Shown here one piece after another: positions 7,329 to 59,449 of a stretch of DNA of 64,000 nt (within the stretch, counting starts at the first letter, position 1; every line of letters starts with the position of its first letter). The notes under the pieces were generated by a model that had not been told where the DNA came from, ran no database searches, and saw nothing but the letters and a program-made list of their open reading frames with translations. The position numbers were made by a program, and so were the translations under genes. Origin of the DNA: an uncultured Nitrospirales bacterium (GTDB taxonomy: Bacteria; Nitrospirota; Nitrospiria; Nitrospirales; UBA8639); contig OX638327.1 in the NCBI GenBank assembly GCA_951812745.1, forward strand, positions 558,001 to 622,000. Reading direction: 5' to 3'.

Positions 7329-7702
7329 GGGTTCAGATCAGAGAGAAACGCTAATCCTGGGCGGAACGGCCTGAAAGCCTAGAGAAATCAACCCTTTTGC
7401 TTGGCAATGGTTATGTACTGGGAAACGGGCAAAGAAAAACGGAAAAGGCGGGTAGAGAAGCTTGCACTGGTGACGGGAATATCGTCTGGGACCGTCGTCG
7501 TCCATTGGGTGTCCATAATCCTAGCACAGGAGTTCATTCCGTATCAACAGGGCACTCGAAATATTTTGAGAATCCACTCAACCAAAGCACGGCCGCTCCC
7601 TTCTTTCTTCCCTTCTGTCATTCCCGACATTTTTAATCGGGAATCCAGCGTCTTTAGTCCTTAGATAGAGATGAGGCCGGAGAGTCAGAGACTATGCCGT
7701 CC
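7329..7702. other. Intergenic region without a convincing gene
   Basis: This 374-bp gap lies upstream of the CNNM gene. Short overlapping frames exist on the plus strand but have no ribosome-binding site and no recognisable sequence. The only structured element seen is the hairpin repeat at 7620-7644. The CNNM promoter should lie near 7330-7400, but I see no clear -35/-10 pair. Confidence 0.5.
7620..7644. repeat. Dispersed hairpin repeat (ATTCCCGA...TCGGGAAT)
   Basis: ATTCCCGA (7620-7627) and TCGGGAAT (7637-7644) form a perfect 8-bp stem with an A/T-rich 9-nt loop, followed by CCAGCG. It belongs to the common GTCATTCCCG...CGGGAATCCAG class of intergenic repeat. A diverged copy is at 17443-17469 and a cousin at 15644. 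Confidence 0.65.
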
Positions 7703-8926
7703 CTATTCAGAAGCCAACCGGTCGAACTTGTAGCTTTGCTTACTCAGAACGGGAAACACCGTAAAGATCGGCGTGCTGTGCGGAATAACGCCCGTGTCCG
7801 TTCCCGGGCTCAAGGTCAAATGGAGATTCACGAAATTAAAACTCAGGCCTTCCTGCCAGGGGTGCGCTTGGGCCTCCGCATAGGTCGGAACCTTGTCCGA
7901 GGCATAGGAGCGGGTCATCAGCCCCGCGCCGCCCTGAAGCCCGTATTCATACAAGTCCGGTGCGCCTTGGATCAGGACGGACACCTTGGAGGCGTCGAAC
8001 CAGACTTTAAAATTGCAACTGACCTGAATGAACGGCCCTAGACTGCCCGTATGTTCAAGTACGGCGAGCGGGTAGGCATATTCCGGAGGCACGTCTCCGG
8101 AAGCAGGCACGGACGCGGCGGGGAACTCGGCATCCTTGATGCCGGAGAAGGACACGAATAAAAGATGAGGGTCGTCCAGGGCAATGTCATAGACTTGCCC
8201 GTCATGATAACTGCACAATTTCCCCATCTCATAGCGAAGAGGATACGAGTATCCCATTTTCGCGTAAAAAATCCGGATGCCCGCTTCCAGCGGATCATCG
8301 GGACGGCGGCTGATCTTCAGGTCGAAGGGGAGCATCATATGAAACCCGTTCGTCCGAACGGCCATGAAGGGAGCGCAGGCGCCGGGGAACTCCTTGTGCA
8401 AGGTCTCATTCTCCGGCTCGAATCGTTTGGGCGTACCGCCGAAATGCTGTGCGGTCTTGGCCTCCTTGGTCAGCCGATACTTGTTTTGGTAATACGCGCC
8501 GGCGCGCTTCTGCGCCAGATCCAGGAAATAGTCGGGGAGATCCGTCTCGACGATCAACGTGTGGCGGTCGACGGAGGCATTCCGGGACGATTTCATGGCG
8601 TCGTTATAGATGGCCAACTCGGCGGTGGTTTTCTGAACGTCATGCTCCAATTCCCTGTCCAGTTCGGGATCGAAGAACCGCGTGGTCGAGAGAAGCTGGC
8701 GGGCCTTTTGCAGTAATTCCAATTTGAGCGAATAGCGTTTGGGTTCCGCGGCAATGGCCTGGGTCGTTGCGATGATCAAACTGAACTGTTCTTCCGGAGC
8801 AATGCCGAGTGCCGTCAAGTCCTGTTCGCGAAGAAACGAGATCGCCAATGGCCCAAACGCCTCTTCACGGCGGAGGCCGAGCGTCAGCAGATAATTAAGA
8901 TACGAACGGGCTTCATCCTGGGTCAT
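7703..8926 (-). CDS. Hypothetical protein, 407 aa
   Basis: I do not recognise the family. The protein has no signal peptide and no membrane segment. The N-terminal 120 residues look helical and charged (MTQDEARSYLNYLLTLG, then a region around LLQKARQLLSTTRFF). The middle and C-terminal parts are mixed and rich in aromatic residues and Pro, with GGAGLMTRSYASDKVPTYAEAQ near 345, which suggests a globular beta-containing domain. It stands alone on the minus strand: its 5' side carries about 270 bp of non-coding sequence with a hairpin repeat, and its 3' side faces the CNNM gene promoter region. Codon use resembles the core genes here. The reading frame and ATG at 8926 are convincing; the function is unknown. 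Confidence 0.75.
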   Translation of the reverse strand: MTQDEARSYLNYLLTLGLRREEAFGPLAISFLREQDLTALGIAPEEQFSLIIATTQAIAAEPKRYSLKLELLQKARQLLSTTRFFDPELDRELEHDVQKTTAELAIYNDAMKSSRNASVDRHTLIVETDLPDYFLDLAQKRAGAYYQNKYRLTKEAKTAQHFGGTPKRFEPENETLHKEFPGACAPFMAVRTNGFHMMLPFDLKISRRPDDPLEAGIRIFYAKMGYSYPLRYEMGKLCSYHDGQVYDIALDDPHLLFVSFSGIKDAEFPAASVPASGDVPPEYAYPLAVLEHTGSLGPFIQVSCNFKVWFDASKVSVLIQGAPDLYEYGLQGGAGLMTRSYASDKVPTYAEAQAHPWQEGLSFNFVNLHLTLSPGTDTGVIPHSTPIFTVFPVLSKQSYKFDRLASE

Positions 8927-8980
8927 AGTCTGAACTTTCGGTCATGCCTTCCTGTTTCCCCTCCTTTGTAAGGACGGGAA

Positions 8981-9002
8981 CTTTTTCCGAAGAGGGAAAA
9001 GT
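8981..9002. repeat. Dispersed hairpin repeat, copy A
   Basis: A 22-bp sequence, CTTTTTCCGAAGAGGGAAAA plus GT, occurs identically at 15671-15692. CTTTTTCC pairs with GGGAAAAG (one G-U pair) around a GAAGA loop, and both copies continue with a similar TTGGGAG/TCGGGAG. It is an intergenic repeat of unknown role. Confidence 0.7.
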
Positions 9003-9157
9003 TGGGAGACAGAGACTGTGGATGGAGAGAGCTTTTGCGGCAATTCTAAGGAAACCGTGTCTGTCAGGACAAGGGGAAGGCCAAGCCAGTGGAGAGGCCA
9101 AGTCGGAAGGGGAGGGCCGGACGAGACTTACTTGCTGCCATTGAGTTGAGTGGGGTG

Positions 9158-9472
9158 CCAGGATTCACTCGATTGCGAAAGAACTCAAGTCTCAGTCAAA
9201 TGTCTTCATCCGCCTCATCTTCGTCGTAGTAGTCGTCACCGTCTGCGATGAGATCGTCCGAGACGGGGGCCACTTGCTCTTTCGAACAAAACGTTTTGCC
9301 GGACAAGTCTGGCGTATCCCATCCCAAAGCCAGGGCAGGAACACCTGTCAGTACTAAAAGCAGAAAAAGGGTGAGAAATGGTTTCATGATGATTCTCCTT
9401 TCCTCTGCGAACAGCCGGAATCCCGAGTAGATCCGCCGCTGTCATCGAGCACGATTGTTGAGTGAATCCTGG
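9158..9472. repeat. 13-bp inverted repeats bracketing the first acidic micro-protein gene
   Basis: CCAGGATTCACTC at 9158-9170 and its exact reverse complement GAGTGAATCCTGG at 9460-9472 flank a 315-bp unit that holds one small gene (9196-9387). There is no transposase, and no clear target duplication is seen next to the arms. The arrangement resembles a small non-autonomous cassette or a long-range regulatory pair. Confidence 0.6.
9196..9387 (-). CDS. Small exported acidic protein, paralogue 1
   Basis: 63 residues. An N-terminal signal-like segment, MKPFLTLFLLLVLTGVPALA, is followed by LGW and a short mature part with one Cys, ending in a run of Asp/Glu/Tyr (DDYYDEDEADEDI). The ATG at 9387 is preceded at good spacing by AAAGGAG, strong evidence of translation. 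A second gene of the same length and plan lies at 9773-9964: the two share M-K-x-F-L, an LTGxPA core and LGW at the same positions and both have acidic tails. The mature peptide would act outside the inner membrane. An acidic exported peptide encoded near a Ni/Co-type transporter could bind cations, but that is inference. Exact 13-bp inverted repeats flank the gene. Confidence 0.7.
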   Translation of the reverse strand: MKPFLTLFLLLVLTGVPALALGWDTPDLSGKTFCSKEQVAPVSDDLIADGDDYYDEDEADEDI

Positions 9473-9772
9473 CTAATACATTGTACATGATGTTTCTTGT
9501 ATATTTAGTAACCGTTACAAATATGTCATATATATTACGAAAATGACATTTATATTACATCTATGTAAATTATTGATCTGTTTAGTGGTGCAATATTACG
9601 CTAAATTTGCACTAATTAGGTGCATTTTAGTCCCATATATGCACTAAATTGACGCTATTCTGTGCCATATTGTCACTAAAAGATGTTGATTTGATGCTGA
9701 AGGGATTCTAGCTTGTGGCCGGAAAGGAGTTTTTTGCTGGCGGGTGTGGGAAACGCGGGTTTGCCTTGTCAT
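9473..9772 (-). promoter_or_regulatory. AT-rich spacer with palindromes and 32-bp-phased CACTAA repeats
   Basis: This 300-bp non-coding spacer lies upstream of acidic paralogue 1 and is far more AT-rich than its surroundings. Visible elements are: a GTAAC-C-GTTAC palindrome (9508-9518); ATGTCAT (9523-9529) inverted to ATGACAT (9543-9549), 20 bp centre to centre; and the hexamer CACTAA at 9610, 9642 and 9674, exactly 32 bp apart, within degenerate direct repeats (9601-9696). TTAGTGGTGCAA (9582-9593) is inverted relative to TTGCACTAA (9607-9615). This looks like a multi-site protein-binding region. No gene is seen in it. Confidence 0.55.
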
Positions 9773-9964
9773 TCAATCATAGTCGTCATCCTCCTTTTCT
9801 TCATCTTCATCGTCCGGAACTTCATCATCATGACTCTGCGGCATCAGCTGTAACTGCAACGCATCATCCCCTCTATAGGATGAATCCGCCATTTGCCATC
9901 CCAAAGAATTGGCGGGAGCGCCGGTCAACATCAATATCAGAAAAAAATCGAGAAATCGTTTCAT
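9773..9964 (-). CDS. Small exported acidic protein, paralogue 2
   Basis: 63 residues counted from the ATG at 9964 (a GTG one codon earlier is possible). AAAGGTGG sits at proper spacing upstream. The signal-like segment MKRFLDFFLILMLTGAPANS is followed by LGW, then a mature part rich in Asp, Glu, Gln and two Met, ending in HDDEVPDDEDEEKEDDDYD. It shares length, signal core (LTGxPA), LGW and acidic tail with paralogue 1. It lies 28 nt downstream of the NiCoT/UreH-type transporter gene on the same strand, so the two probably form an operon. That suggests a link to divalent metal handling outside the cytoplasm, which is inference. I know of no named family. Confidence 0.7.
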   Translation of the reverse strand: MKRFLDFFLILMLTGAPANSLGWQMADSSYRGDDALQLQLMPQSHDDEVPDDEDEEKEDDDYD

Positions 9965-9992
9965 CACGTACCACCTTTCTCAAATGACAGGT

Positions 9993-10709
9993 TCACGCGT
10001 ACAGAAGGAAAGCGACTCCGGCCTCCACCAGCAACACCGTGCCGAGCGCCATCGTGACGAACCCCACGACGGCCTGCAGGCTGCGATGAGCCCACGTGAA
10101 AGCCTGCGCGGTCCAGGCCATAGGCACGGCGAGCAATGACGAAAGCACCGTCATGCCGGCAATCGAGCCAAGACCGAACAACGCGACGTAGAGCAGGCCC
10201 ATGACCGGGTCCTGCACGGTCGAAGTAGTCAGGACCACCAACGCGGCTGATCCGGCCAAACCGTGGACCATGCCCACCAGCAGAGTCCGCAGGGGGAGCC
10301 TGCTCGCATGGCTATGAACGTGACGGTCGGGATCATGGCCCCCGTTCTCACCGAGATGGCTATGGACGTGGAAATGGCTCCGGCCGTCGGCATGCCGGTG
10401 GCTATGAAAATGCAGACGGTCGCGCCACAGGCGAAGGAGCACCTGCCCGCCCAGCAGGATCAGCATCACGCCGACGACACCTTCCAGCACCTGGGCCAGG
10501 GTGTCACCGAAGCGCAGATCCAGGAAGACAGCCGCACCGGCAAAGAGGAACAAGGTCAACGTATGCCCCAGGCCCCAGACCGCGCCGTGGGCGGCGATCC
10601 GGCGAACCGATCGCGTGCCCGTGCAAAGCGACGAGACGGCCGCGACGTGATCGGCCTCCAACGCATGCTGCATGCCAAGCACAAGCCCCAGCAGAAGAAT
10701 GCCCGTCAT
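9993..10709 (-). CDS. NiCoT/UreH-type nickel or cobalt transporter
   Basis: A 238-residue inner-membrane protein of the HoxN/HupN/NixA/UreH group. The signature GMQHALEADHVAAV (about 12-25) contains the HX4DH metal motif in the first helix. Further helices follow, with GHTLTLFLFAG, GGQVLLRL and, after a His-rich cytosolic loop (HFHSHRHADGRSHFHVHSH), GMVHGLAGSAALVVLTTSTV and GLGSIAGMTVLSSLLAVPM. The size fits the short UreH/SulP-like members with about 6 helices. The substrate is most likely Ni2+ or Co2+, and the His-rich loop supports metal binding. It precedes the acidic exported protein at 9773-9964 by 28 nt on the same strand. I see no metal riboswitch upstream. Confidence 0.88.
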   Translation of the reverse strand: MTGILLLGLVLGMQHALEADHVAAVSSLCTGTRSVRRIAAHGAVWGLGHTLTLFLFAGAAVFLDLRFGDTLAQVLEGVVGVMLILLGGQVLLRLWRDRLHFHSHRHADGRSHFHVHSHLGENGGHDPDRHVHSHASRLPLRTLLVGMVHGLAGSAALVVLTTSTVQDPVMGLLYVALFGLGSIAGMTVLSSLLAVPMAWTAQAFTWAHRSLQAVVGFVTMALGTVLLVEAGVAFLLYA

Positions 10710-10961
10710 AACTTATGCCCCCGGAAAAGGCATGCTGCCAATCATATGCTCTCAAGCCTCCATACAGAAGGTCTCTACTGTACGTTTCGTCGAGTTCTGT
10801 TGACAAGAGGACGGAGAACGACGCCCGGCCCCTGCAAGGCCTGGTTTCATGGTCGTGGCTCTCAGGCGAAGTTGTCGCGCCGGTCTTGCGTGGCGGGTTA
10901 TTGACCTTCATTGCGGCCCTATCCATAATGATCGCGTGACTGCAGGAAGGGGTGCTTGGTC

Positions 10962-12101
10962 ATGATTGATTGGCTTGGGATTGATCACCTGTTCGATCTG
11001 TCCAGGACGGAAGCGATTGCAGGATTCTTTACCCCGCTGGCGATCTTCGCCGTGTTTTTCCTGGCGCAGCTCATCCTTCCGGCAAGGCGGGTTCCCGGCT
11101 ACGTCATCAATCCGGAAACCGGGCAACCCCGCAACTATCGGCTCAACGGTCTTTTGGCGTTTGCCATCGCGCTGATCGTGTGGGCTCTCGAACTCACCGG
11201 GATGCCGCGTGATTGGTTCTACCGGTCCTCGATCTATGCCGTGGCCGGCGGAACGGTCTTCGCTACAATCTTGACCATCATTGCGGTGTTCAGCCAGCCG
11301 CAAGGCAAGGTGAAGAATCCGCTCCTGGCGCTATGGTGCGGCCGGGCCCAGGAACTGTCGTTCTTCAACGAACGCTTCGACGTCAAGATGTATCTGTATG
11401 CCGTCGGTGGGACGATGTTGTCGCTCAACGTCCTGTCCGGGGCCGTGTACCACTACGATCGCTTTGGCGAAGACGCCAATCCGGGCGTATTCCTGTATGC
11501 GGCGTTCTTCACGTTCTACATACTGGACTATTTCATCTTTGAGCGCGTCACGCTCTATACCTACGACCTGATCCATGAGAATGTCGGCTTCAAATTGTTC
11601 TGGGGCGGCCTCGTGGTCTACGGGTGGCTGTTCATCCTCCCGTTGTGGGGCATGGCCGTGTACCCGGACCCCGGATTCTCGCCGGCATGGACGTCCGTGT
11701 GGCTCATCGGAACGACGGCGCTGTTCCTTTTCGGATGGGGCATTTCGCGTGGCGCCAACATGCAGAAGTACGCATGCAAGCGATGGCCCGACCGCAAGTT
11801 CCTCGGGTTTATCGAGCCGGAGTACATCGAGGCGGGTGACCGCAAGATCCTGTGCAGTGGTTTCTGGGGTGTCGCCCGCCACTTCAACTACTTGGGCGAG
11901 GGGTTCCTTGCCCTGTCGATTGCCTTGGTCTTCGGCTACTTCACCAATCCCTGGGTTTGGACGTACTTTGTCTTCGTCGTCTCGTTTTTTCTCTTCCGTC
12001 AACTTGATGACGACCGACACTGCGCCGAAAAATACGGCGCCGAAAAGTGGGCCGAGTATCAGGCGCGAGTAAAGTACCGGATTTTCCCCGGCGTGTATTG
12101 A
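10962..12101 (+). CDS. Sterol C14-reductase-like (ERG4/ERG24 family) membrane protein
   Basis: About 380 residues with roughly nine membrane segments. The C-terminal third carries family signatures: LCSGFWGVARHFNYLGEG (about 286-303) and, at the end, RQLDDDRHCAEKYGAEKWAEY followed by VKYRIFPGVY. These match the ERG4/ERG24 delta-14/delta-24(28) sterol reductases, which use NADPH to reduce a ring or side-chain double bond. Bacterial members exist in a few sterol-making or intracellular bacteria. No sterol biosynthetic gene (squalene epoxidase, oxidosqualene cyclase, CYP51) is in the window, so the substrate could be a different polycyclic or isoprenoid lipid. AGGAAGG at 10944-10950 fits either the ATG at 10962 or a TTG at 10956. 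Confidence 0.85.
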   Translation: MIDWLGIDHLFDLSRTEAIAGFFTPLAIFAVFFLAQLILPARRVPGYVINPETGQPRNYRLNGLLAFAIALIVWALELTGMPRDWFYRSSIYAVAGGTVFATILTIIAVFSQPQGKVKNPLLALWCGRAQELSFFNERFDVKMYLYAVGGTMLSLNVLSGAVYHYDRFGEDANPGVFLYAAFFTFYILDYFIFERVTLYTYDLIHENVGFKLFWGGLVVYGWLFILPLWGMAVYPDPGFSPAWTSVWLIGTTALFLFGWGISRGANMQKYACKRWPDRKFLGFIEPEYIEAGDRKILCSGFWGVARHFNYLGEGFLALSIALVFGYFTNPWVWTYFVFVVSFFLFRQLDDDRHCAEKYGAEKWAEYQARVKYRIFPGVY

Positions 12102-12198
12102 GAGGGCTCCCTGGAGAATCCATATAGGCGCCTGCAACTTCGTGATCCTGACCTGAAAGCAGTGAAGAGCAGTACGGAAAATTTCTCTCGTCATCCTC

Positions 12199-14616
12199 AT
12201 GTCCGACCATAGTTCAGAAACGCAACAAGTCCTTGAATGGCCGCAAGTGCTCGAGGTGTTGGCCTTACAGGCGCATTCCGCGCCGGGGGCTGAGTTGTGC
12301 CGGCGGCTGCCGTTGGAAGACACGCTCGAACTCGCGCAACGGCGCATGCAGGAAACCACGGATATGCTGGAATTGCATCATGCGCCCGTGCCGTTCCCCG
12401 CCGTGCAATTCGAAGACTCGTCACAAGCCCTGGAAAAGGCGGAAAAGGGCGGGATCCTGGACCTCCAGACGTTGCGAGCGCTCTCCGTCATGATCCACGT
12501 GGCCGTAGCGGTGCGACGCTGTCTTGCGGTGAATCAACAAACCGCGCCCGCCCTGTTTTCTTATTATGCCTCCCTGCCGGATCTGTCCGAACTGCGACAG
12601 GAGATCGACCGGTGCGTGAGCGAAGAAGGAGAAATGCTCGGTCAGGCTTCACCGGCCTTGGCCGAAGCGCTCCGTACGGCTCAAGGGTTGAAACAGCGCA
12701 TACGCCGGCGCGTGGAGACCATGGTGGCGTCCTCACGCTACCGGGAGTTGCTGCAGGAACCGTATTATGCCCAGCGGGAGAACCGGTACGTCCTGCCGAT
12801 CAAAGCCGAGCGCCAGCACGACATCCCCGGGATCGTGCATGATATGTCGGCCAGCGGCGCCACGGTGTTTTTGGAACCCCGTGAACTCATCGACCTGAAC
12901 AACCAGATCAAAGTCGCCGAGTTGCAAGTCACCCGTGAAATCAACCGGATTCTGCAGGAACTCACGGACCGGGTTGTGGAGCACCTGCCGGACTTGCGGA
13001 GCCTGCTGCACGTCCTGACCATCCTGGACGCCATCGGAGCCAAAGCGCGATTGAGTGTCCGCATGAACGGCACGCCGGTGCGTCTCAATACGGACGGGCA
13101 CATTCGTTTGTGGAAAGCCCGCCATCCCTTGCTGCCGTTGACCATAGAGCAGGTGGTGGCCAACGACGTCATGTTTGAAAAGGATGCCGCCGTGTTGGTG
13201 ATTTCCGGGCCGAATACCGGCGGAAAGACCGTGCTGCTGAAGCTGGTGGGCTTGTGTAGCCTGATGGTGCGGGGCGGGCTCCATCTGCCCTGCGGGGACG
13301 GTTCGGAAATGGCGTTTTTCGAGGACACCTTCGCGGACATCGGCGATGCGCAGGACCTGACCAAAGACCTGTCCAGTTTTTCCGCCCACGTCAGAAAACT
13401 CATCGACCTGCTCAAGCATATCGAACACCGCACCGGCGGCGCGTCACCGCACACGCTGGTGCTGCTGGACGAGGTCATCAGTTCGACCGATCCCGCCGAG
13501 GGCGCGGCCTTGGCCGAAGCCCTCCTCCGCCGGTTCGCCGAACTCAATCTCAAGGTCGTGGTGACCACGCATTACAATTCCTTGAAGACCCTGGCCTTGT
13601 CGACCCCCGGGTTTCTGAACGCCAGCCTGGAATTCGACGTGAACACGCTGGCGCCGACGTACCGCTTCATTCCCGGCATCCCCGGCGGGTCCTCCGCGCT
13701 CGACATCGCCGGTCGTCTGGGCATGGACCCGTCGATTCTCGACCAAGCGTTGAGCCTGGTTCATCAGGAAGACCGCCAACTCGATCATATCTTCGCGGAC
13801 CTGCAACACACTCACCAGGAATTGAAGGAAGATCGGGAAGTAGCCCGGACCCAACGCGAAACAGCCGACCGTGAAGCTGAGGAAGCGCGGACGATCGCCG
13901 ACCGGCTGCGCTCCGTCGAACGCGAAGAAATCAAGAAAATGAAAAAGAAGTTCCGGGAGGAGTTGGCGGCCGCGCGTGCGGAGATTCGCCGGATCACCGA
14001 GTCGTTGCAACGGCAACGGACGTGGACGCACGCGCAGGAAGCGAAAGGTCTCCTGCAACGCGTTGCGGATACCGTAAACCAACAAACCCGGACGTCGTTC
14101 GAGACGGTTCCCATCGAATCGCTCGAGAAAGGCGACGTCGTGGAAATCGCCAACCTGGATACGCTGGGGCGGTTACTCGAAAAACCCGAAGGCAAGAAAT
14201 CCGTTCGTGTGCAGATCGGGGCCTCCGAAATGTCCGTCCACGTGAACCGGCTCGTGGGAATCGGAAAAGGAGAGGGGATGCCCCAACCGGCCTCCAATAC
14301 GGCGCAACCCGCACCGCGCTCGGTGACACCGGGCCTTTCCGCCGGGGACGCGCCGGTGGGCGCAACGGCGTCGGGTTTCGCCGGGATCGACCTGCGGGGG
14401 CACACCGCGGAAGAAGCGCTTGAACAACTGACGGTACAGTTGGACCAGGCCTTGCTGCGCAACGCCAAATCCGTCCGGATCATTCACGGGCATGGGACAG
14501 GAAAGCTCAAGGCCGCGATCCGGGAATTTCTCGCGCAGTCGGCCTACGTCGCGGAGTTTCGACCGGGGGCGAAGGAAGAAGGCGGAGACGGTGTGACGAT
14601 GGCGGAGCTGACGTAA
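12199..14616 (+). CDS. mutS2: MutS2 family endonuclease/ATPase
   Basis: 805 residues, normal for MutS2. The protein lacks the mismatch-recognition domain of MutS. It has an N-terminal core/lever region, an ABC ATPase domain with Walker A GPNTGGKT at about 337-344 and Walker B (TLVLLDEVISSTDPAEGAAL) near 420, a long charged coiled coil (about 530-620) and a C-terminal Smr nuclease domain (IDLRGHTAEEAL at 731, IIHGHGTGKL near 760). MutS2 acts on recombination intermediates and, in some bacteria, on collided ribosomes. The ATG at 12199 gives the usual N-terminus. The gene ends 3 nt from the convergent queG stop, so the two transcripts may overlap. Confidence 0.95.
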   Translation: MSDHSSETQQVLEWPQVLEVLALQAHSAPGAELCRRLPLEDTLELAQRRMQETTDMLELHHAPVPFPAVQFEDSSQALEKAEKGGILDLQTLRALSVMIHVAVAVRRCLAVNQQTAPALFSYYASLPDLSELRQEIDRCVSEEGEMLGQASPALAEALRTAQGLKQRIRRRVETMVASSRYRELLQEPYYAQRENRYVLPIKAERQHDIPGIVHDMSASGATVFLEPRELIDLNNQIKVAELQVTREINRILQELTDRVVEHLPDLRSLLHVLTILDAIGAKARLSVRMNGTPVRLNTDGHIRLWKARHPLLPLTIEQVVANDVMFEKDAAVLVISGPNTGGKTVLLKLVGLCSLMVRGGLHLPCGDGSEMAFFEDTFADIGDAQDLTKDLSSFSAHVRKLIDLLKHIEHRTGGASPHTLVLLDEVISSTDPAEGAALAEALLRRFAELNLKVVVTTHYNSLKTLALSTPGFLNASLEFDVNTLAPTYRFIPGIPGGSSALDIAGRLGMDPSILDQALSLVHQEDRQLDHIFADLQHTHQELKEDREVARTQRETADREAEEARTIADRLRSVEREEIKKMKKKFREELAAARAEIRRITESLQRQRTWTHAQEAKGLLQRVADTVNQQTRTSFETVPIESLEKGDVVEIANLDTLGRLLEKPEGKKSVRVQIGASEMSVHVNRLVGIGKGEGMPQPASNTAQPAPRSVTPGLSAGDAPVGATASGFAGIDLRGHTAEEALEQLTVQLDQALLRNAKSVRIIHGHGTGKLKAAIREFLAQSAYVAEFRPGAKEEGGDGVTMAELT

Positions 14617-59190: not shown

Positions 59191-59449
59191 AACGTGCCTC
59201 CTTTCGCGTGGAAACAGCTATGTTTCTGTCTGCTTTAAGAGTAGCCCATCGAACCTGAAAACATCATCATTTTGATGCTGGAATGGCTTCCTTCTGTGGC
59301 GTGGTGTATACAAAATGTTACGCGTACGTTTCGATACATATATTCCATATCCTGTACAGAGTAACATATTTTATACAATATATTGATATATTTTATTTTT
59401 TTCAAGGGATTTTTTCAGATTTTTTCATGAGGACGAAATCCTGATTTTG

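Follow-up and report, generated by a model that had tools for sequence, protein, structure and literature searches.

A putatively duplicated pair of small acidic proteins with export-type leaders beside a UreH-like permease gene in Nitrospirales

Nickel(II) sites usually take their ligands from histidine or cysteine, and CbtB, a protein of about 60 residues with one hydrophobic segment whose gene lies near that of a metal permease, ends in a histidine-rich site. Among the secondary permeases, UreH-type genes lie next to the genes of nickel enzymes (PMC2667541), and the NiCoT type has the motifs (R/K)HAXDADH(I/L) in TM2, LGX(D/E)T(A/S)(T/S)E in TM5 and GMXXXD(T/S)XD in TM6 (PMC7689651, Table 2). 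As to gene control, the icaR mRNA of Staphylococcus aureus has complementary 5' and 3' UTRs that pair (PMC3868564), pairing in mRNAs of this kind being expected to change translation or decay by RNase III, and phased AT-tracts or intrinsically curved intergenic DNA are known near promoters (PMC4132750). The GTDB genus bin75 lies within Nitrospira lineage IVb, and its MAGs are predominantly sponge-associated, with one from the coral Porites lutea (PMC11812461); lineage IVb is also treated in PMC12342949.

The window, that is, the whole stretch of 64,000 nucleotides analysed here, comes from a complete genome of 2.35 Mb, which we infer to belong to bin75 from its kinship with named MAGs. On its minus strand, a permease gene is followed by ORF2, an AT-rich spacer, arm F of an inverted repeat, ORF1, arm R and the gene of a 407-aa protein (Table 1). 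Judged from the comparisons below, ORF1 and ORF2 are best read as a duplicated, lineage-restricted pair of small exported proteins.

Table 1. Features of the locus, in window positions; a slash marks the putative cut site
Feature	Positions	Strand	Description	Basis
407-aa protein without named family	7703..8926	-	downstream neighbour	kept across the family
Arm R of inverted repeat	9157..9170	-	GAGTGAATCCTGGC, 3' of ORF1; also 5' side and loop of a predicted local hairpin	
ORF1	9196..9387	-	63-aa putatively exported acidic peptide (MKPFLTLFLLLVLTGVPALA/LGWDTPDLSGKTFCS...DEDEADEDI), ATG start	orthologues, dN/dS
Arm F of 14-bp inverted repeat	9460..9473	-	GCCAGGATTCACTC, in the ORF1 5' leader	conservation, G-U pairs
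AT-rich (71%) spacer	9474..9701	.	helically phased, predicted curved; between ORF2 and the ORF1 leader	
ORF2	9773..9964	-	63-aa paralogue (MKRFLDFFLILMLTGAPANS/LGW...DEDEEKEDDDYD), ATG start	orthologues G006 and G007, dN/dS
UreH-like Ni/Co-type permease	9993..10709	-	238 aa, HALEADH = HX4DH, His-rich loop	

The two proteins are 47% identical and alignable end to end, with LTG(V/A)PA, LGW and an acidic C-terminus in common. The original prediction had given both exactly 63 residues and one plan: the plan stands, as does the length in the source genome, but across the family the orthologues range from 58 to 63 residues (63, 63, 59, 58 and 58 for ORF1; 63, 63 and 61 for ORF2), and the equal length is a coincidence. 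For ORF2, an alternative GTG one codon upstream of the ATG would give 64 residues. The good ribosome-binding sites noticed earlier are indeed present, purine-rich in both cases (GAGGAAAGGAG 5' of ORF1 and GAGAAAGGTGG 5' of ORF2), and are kept among species. For ORF1, each of the ten interspecies comparisons offers 12 to 26 synonymous changes, and dN/dS lies at 0.04-0.23 throughout; for ORF2 it is 0.21-0.23 in divergent pairs (0.21 between the source genome and G007), while the pair with G006 has too few changes for a verdict. Indels in the orthologues are whole codons, and the least-changing part is the acidic tail (DEDEADEDI in ORF1, DEEKEDDDYD in ORF2), which is kept as sequence, beyond mere composition; in the ORF2 tail, pN is 0.07 against a pS of 0.98 between the source genome and G007. 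The low dN/dS, the indels of whole codons and the well-kept tail show that both ORFs are genes and that they evolve as coding sequences under purifying selection.

The ORF1 orthologues share Lys2 (replaced by Asn in one species, G004) and a hydrophobic core, together with P-A-L-A, (L/F)GWD.PDLSGK...CS and an acidic end. The alignment, judged by inspection, shows the hallmarks of Sec export and signal peptidase I cleavage, namely a positive n-region, a hydrophobic core and small residues at -3/-1. Either A-L-A or A-N-S precedes (L/F)GW in the aligned proteins, with Ala at both -3 and -1 in five of five complete ORF1 proteins; the signal-peptide pattern is broken by Asn2 of the G004 ORF1 protein and by the Val that G007 ORF2 has at -1. 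A lipobox was not found, as there is no Cys near the leader end and LPAM_1 scores 12.9 bits against a cut-off of 20. The AlphaFold model has a helix at residues 3-20, followed by coil of low confidence. Searches of Pfam, NCBIfam, PHROGs and the PDB gave no significant match for either protein, nor does a sequence match to any family connect them with CbtB-type one-helix metal-transport proteins. The earlier view of both proteins as exported agrees with these signal-like leaders (Lys2, the core and the A-x-A conserved before LGW in ORF1), and the claim that there is no named family holds. By their sequences, ORF1 and ORF2 are acidic gene products with an export-type leader; all beyond this we infer.

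Our preferred explanation is that signal peptidase I would cut before LGW/FGW and so release a mostly disordered polyanion into the periplasm. The part after the leader has 38-43 residues and a net charge of about -13 to -15, and such a polyanion would most likely be a low-affinity, high-capacity binder of divalent cations, with the outer face of the UreH-like permease as the likeliest site of action, given the position of the genes. A bent-DNA region upstream would set ORF1 expression, and pairing between the 5' and 3' UTRs would stabilise the ORF1 message or mark it for RNase III. We put this explanation forward as a whole, both the exported cation-binding pair and the control of ORF1, as tentative and somewhat short of probable; taken singly, a periplasmic cation-binding role is possible rather than probable, and buffering of cations is plausible.

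The permease has weak matches only, to the NicO, DsbD_2, ArsG and NicT models, and scores 15 bits against TIGR00802, whose cut-off is 333. It departs from the NiCoT TM2 motif, with QHALEADHV retaining the HX4DH core alone, and by inspection the TM5 and TM6 motifs are absent from its 238 residues. The original prediction had proposed to test whether such short ORFs co-occur with UreH/NiCoT genes. The peptides do adjoin the permease gene in six of the six genomes that have them, but of the 49 family genomes 42 carry that gene, mostly without peptides, and a scan of 24 further permease loci found no acidic-tail ORF beside it. In the source genome, ORF2 starts 28 nt past the permease stop codon (9993-9995), as first noted, and the same distance recurs in G006; elsewhere the next peptide start lies roughly 160 nt (G007), 340 nt (G004), 200 nt (G012) or 34 nt (G003) away, so that the distance is correct but not conserved (34 to 342 nt in other species). 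Since all six occurrences represent one inherited locus, the adjacency counts once. With one locus, a permease that mostly lacks the peptides and a 28-nt spacing that is not conserved, the link to nickel or cobalt is weak.

Nickel clients were also considered. Within the genus, no nickel-enzyme gene adjoins the permease gene, and the urease genes of the source genome lie elsewhere; in another genus of the family, some permease homologues follow a HypB-like gene (named by eye). Urease is found in nine of the 14 genomes of the genus and in eight of the ten with the permease. It was rejected as the client, since the peptide-bearing G004 and G007 lack it and the peptides do not track it; NiFe hydrogenase was rejected as well, with only short matches in every genome, which were read as complex I-like. 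Of the usual nickel ligands, mature ORF1 offers a single Cys and no His, and the mature ORF2 of the source genome a single His and no Cys. For the cation role, then, speak the export signal, the conserved polyanionic tail and one locus beside a Ni/Co-type permease; against it stand the mostly peptide-free permease, an operon that is not conserved, the near absence of His and the untracked urease. Of the metal-binding or charge-buffering function proposed originally, the general form is still plausible, whereas, with a single locus, almost His-free tails and the lack of urease tracking, specificity for nickel or cobalt is not supported.

The same proteins might instead remain uncut, as single-helix membrane proteins that extend their acidic tail into the periplasm and serve the permease, or some other complex of the envelope, as regulatory or accessory subunits. 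The adjacent permease gene in six genomes and the predicted helix at 3-20 would suit such a subunit, as would the Val before LGW in G007 ORF2, which makes a poor cut site there. However, A-x-A precedes (L/F)GW in every complete ORF1 protein, the hydrophobic stretch is short and runs into a Pro-Ala turn typical of cut leaders, and the permease is common without the peptides; we regard uncut membrane subunits as rather unlikely, though worth keeping in view.

The distribution of the peptides is narrow. They are present in six of the 14 genomes of bin75, all six having ORF1 and three (the source genome, G006 and G007) ORF2 also; the ORF1 orthologues are those of G003, G004, G007 and G012, plus that of G006, whose assembled sequence is divided between two contigs and has no start. 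Among 222 other genomes of the order, only a few weak matches were obtained (E 0.002-0.009), mostly within longer frames. A GTDB-wide pattern scan with one genome per species (84,980 species) returned five relatives only, the MAGs 'Nitrospira sp. SB0662_bin_26', 'Nitrospira sp. bin75', 'Nitrospirales bacterium Plut_88904', 'jk18x22bins.71' and 'MEX2-MAG12'. Homologues outside the strain, which the original prediction had called for, thus exist in five other species. A mobile or viral origin of the pair was rejected, with no relatives among viral contigs or plasmids. In G007, the ORF2 leader aligns with the ORF1 leader over about 90 nt, a degenerate arm F included (matched by none of 1000 shuffles); this likeness implies that the leader was duplicated too, and the pair most likely descends from a single unit copied together with its leader.

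The 407-aa protein downstream is found in 43 of the 49 family genomes at 67-98% identity, has no Pfam or NCBIfam match, and gave a structure model of poor quality. In the tree of its gene, peptide holders and non-holders are interleaved, which requires either losses or exchange by recombination. Along window positions 7600-12400, compared with L052, L053 and L054, DNA identity between species switches: between the source genome and G006 it is about 96% on the permease side and 91% on the 407-aa side, and with G004 it is 83% and 95%, respectively. This mosaic favours homologous recombination between species of the genus. In two assemblies, a contig ends near the locus. The G012 contig stops just past ORF1 in what appears to be the start of a transposase gene (L004:1-90), and its 407-aa gene is on another contig; in G006, the assembled spacer runs directly into about codon 6 of ORF1, near the contig end (L013:1900-1974), which may reflect either an assembly error or a true loss of the leader, with arm F, and of the start codon. 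Another sequence of the window, CCCCTCCTTTGTAAGGA (8958-8974), has 23 genome copies with at most one mismatch (reversed control, none) and by these counts is a dispersed repeat family; a 55-bp piece around it has the opposite orientation in G003.

Such a distribution raises the prospect that the peptides are secreted or surface factors for life in a sponge or coral host and that their place beside the permease gene is incidental. They are confined to a mostly host-associated genus (PMC11812461) and patchy inside it, and the locus is a recombination mosaic with variable spacing to the permease. Yet the orthologues hold the same place in every holder genome, and nothing is known of a second export system or of a secretion signal that would serve them; host factors of this kind seem to us on the unlikely side. 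The periplasmic cation-binding polyanion is kept as the working explanation, and its proposed control lies in the DNA around ORF1.

The spacer between ORF2 and the ORF1 leader, earlier called structured, is AT-rich and ordered as DNA, but not as RNA. Its A/T period is 10.6-10.7 bp in the source genome, G006, G007 and G004 (0, 0, 1 and 12 of 500 shuffles are as strong, respectively) and is not seen in the short G012 spacer. In a wedge model of DNA curvature, the spacer ranks first in predicted curvature of 3193 window positions, and in each of the four spacers only 0-2 of 300 shuffles reach the observed value. Identity peaks at lags 11, 20-21 and 31-32 fit helical phasing better than a strict 11-bp tandem repeat, which was rejected. 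RNA folding is no better than in shuffles (z -1.1 on either strand) and Rfam has no match within the window, so a structured RNA was rejected too, as was a regulon-wide operator array, since elsewhere the core motif TATGACATATTTGTAA is no commoner than expected by chance; the spacer sequence is unique in the genome. We predict, hence, that the spacer is bent as DNA and does not form a structured RNA. A consensus sigma-70 promoter was not found ahead of ORF1. Elsewhere in the window, a second strongly AT-rich intergenic stretch (59300-59420, down to 24% GC) has no obvious periodicity.

Flanking ORF1 are the two arms of the inverted repeat. The original prediction had exact 13-bp repeats bracketing one gene: the bracketing is exact, but the arms are 14 bp long, with 100% complementarity and 289 bp between them. 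They are among the best-conserved non-coding DNA of the locus. Across four species, mean column identity is 93% in arm F and 70% in the remaining leader. Arm R lies in an 18-column run that is unchanged in four species, and no other part of the alignment, not even the coding DNA, is kept so well; arm R is invariant in all sequences compared, whereas the DNA just beyond it falls to 46%. Pairing of the arms in RNA is predicted with probability 0.98-1.0 in all four species that have both, and the two arm substitutions observed, the only informative ones, both keep the predicted pairing as G-U. If the transcript spans both arms, the ORF1 message has complementary 5' and 3' UTRs kept in evolution. 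In all six genomes, arm R is also predicted to form a local hairpin with the downstream CACTC(G/A) or TACTCG, and the hairpin loop, AAUCCUGGC, complements part of arm F. G003 keeps arm R intact but lacks arm F, so arm R cannot serve only the end-to-end clasp; its survival there can be explained by the local hairpin. These observations lead us to predict a message whose 3' hairpin is captured by its own 5' leader. The most specific form of our explanation, in which an exported polyanion specific to sponge symbionts acts with the UreH-like permease and its dose is set by this self-clasping message downstream of a bent control region, is speculative and quite unlikely to be right in every part.

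The layout of the repeat, two perfectly complementary 14-bp arms 289 bp apart, is also seen in invertible segments, and the G006 contig breaks inside ORF1, as might be expected if the bracketed segment were a DNA element, either an invertible switch or what was once a MITE-like cassette. This is very unlikely: a search of the genome with the 13-bp core of the repeat gave no further exact copy, by which a repeat family or MITE was rejected; the segment has one orientation in the assemblies of all four genomes with both arms; a target-site duplication was not seen; and in G007 and G012 the arms differ from each other while the RNA pairs are preserved. That ORF1 and ORF2 are open reading frames of no consequence, as their small size and narrow distribution might hint, is hardly credible given the dN/dS values in ORF1 and in the divergent ORF2 pairs, the whole-codon indels and the conserved ribosome-binding sites.

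In summary, the locus adds an unnamed family of very small putatively exported proteins, easily overlooked in annotation, from an uncultured, host-associated nitrite oxidiser. Should the cation role be true, the implication would be that a secondary metal permease may work with an acidic partner in the periplasm, and if the end-to-end pairing is true, the locus would provide a conserved Nitrospirota case of 5'-3' UTR control.

Compared with CbtB, the acidic peptides have the same size, a single hydrophobic segment and a permease neighbour, but their tails are Asp/Glu with almost no His. The neighbouring permease shares HX4DH (as HALEADH) and a long His-rich loop with the UreH/NiCoT/HupE secondary nickel-cobalt permeases, for which the available text of PMC2667541 and PMC7689651 does not describe a small acidic exported partner. 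Like icaR mRNA, the ORF1 message has complementary 5' and 3' UTRs predicted to pair (PMC3868564); unlike in icaR, an unrelated gene of another phylum, the ORF1 pairing is known from prediction and spans 14 bp, at a place some 70 nt before the start codon that leaves the ribosome-binding site clear. Finally, the spacer resembles phased AT-tracts in its 10.6-10.7-bp A/T period and predicted intergenic curvature (PMC4132750), and differs from them in that its position between ORF2 and ORF1 is kept in several species while its sequence has diverged.
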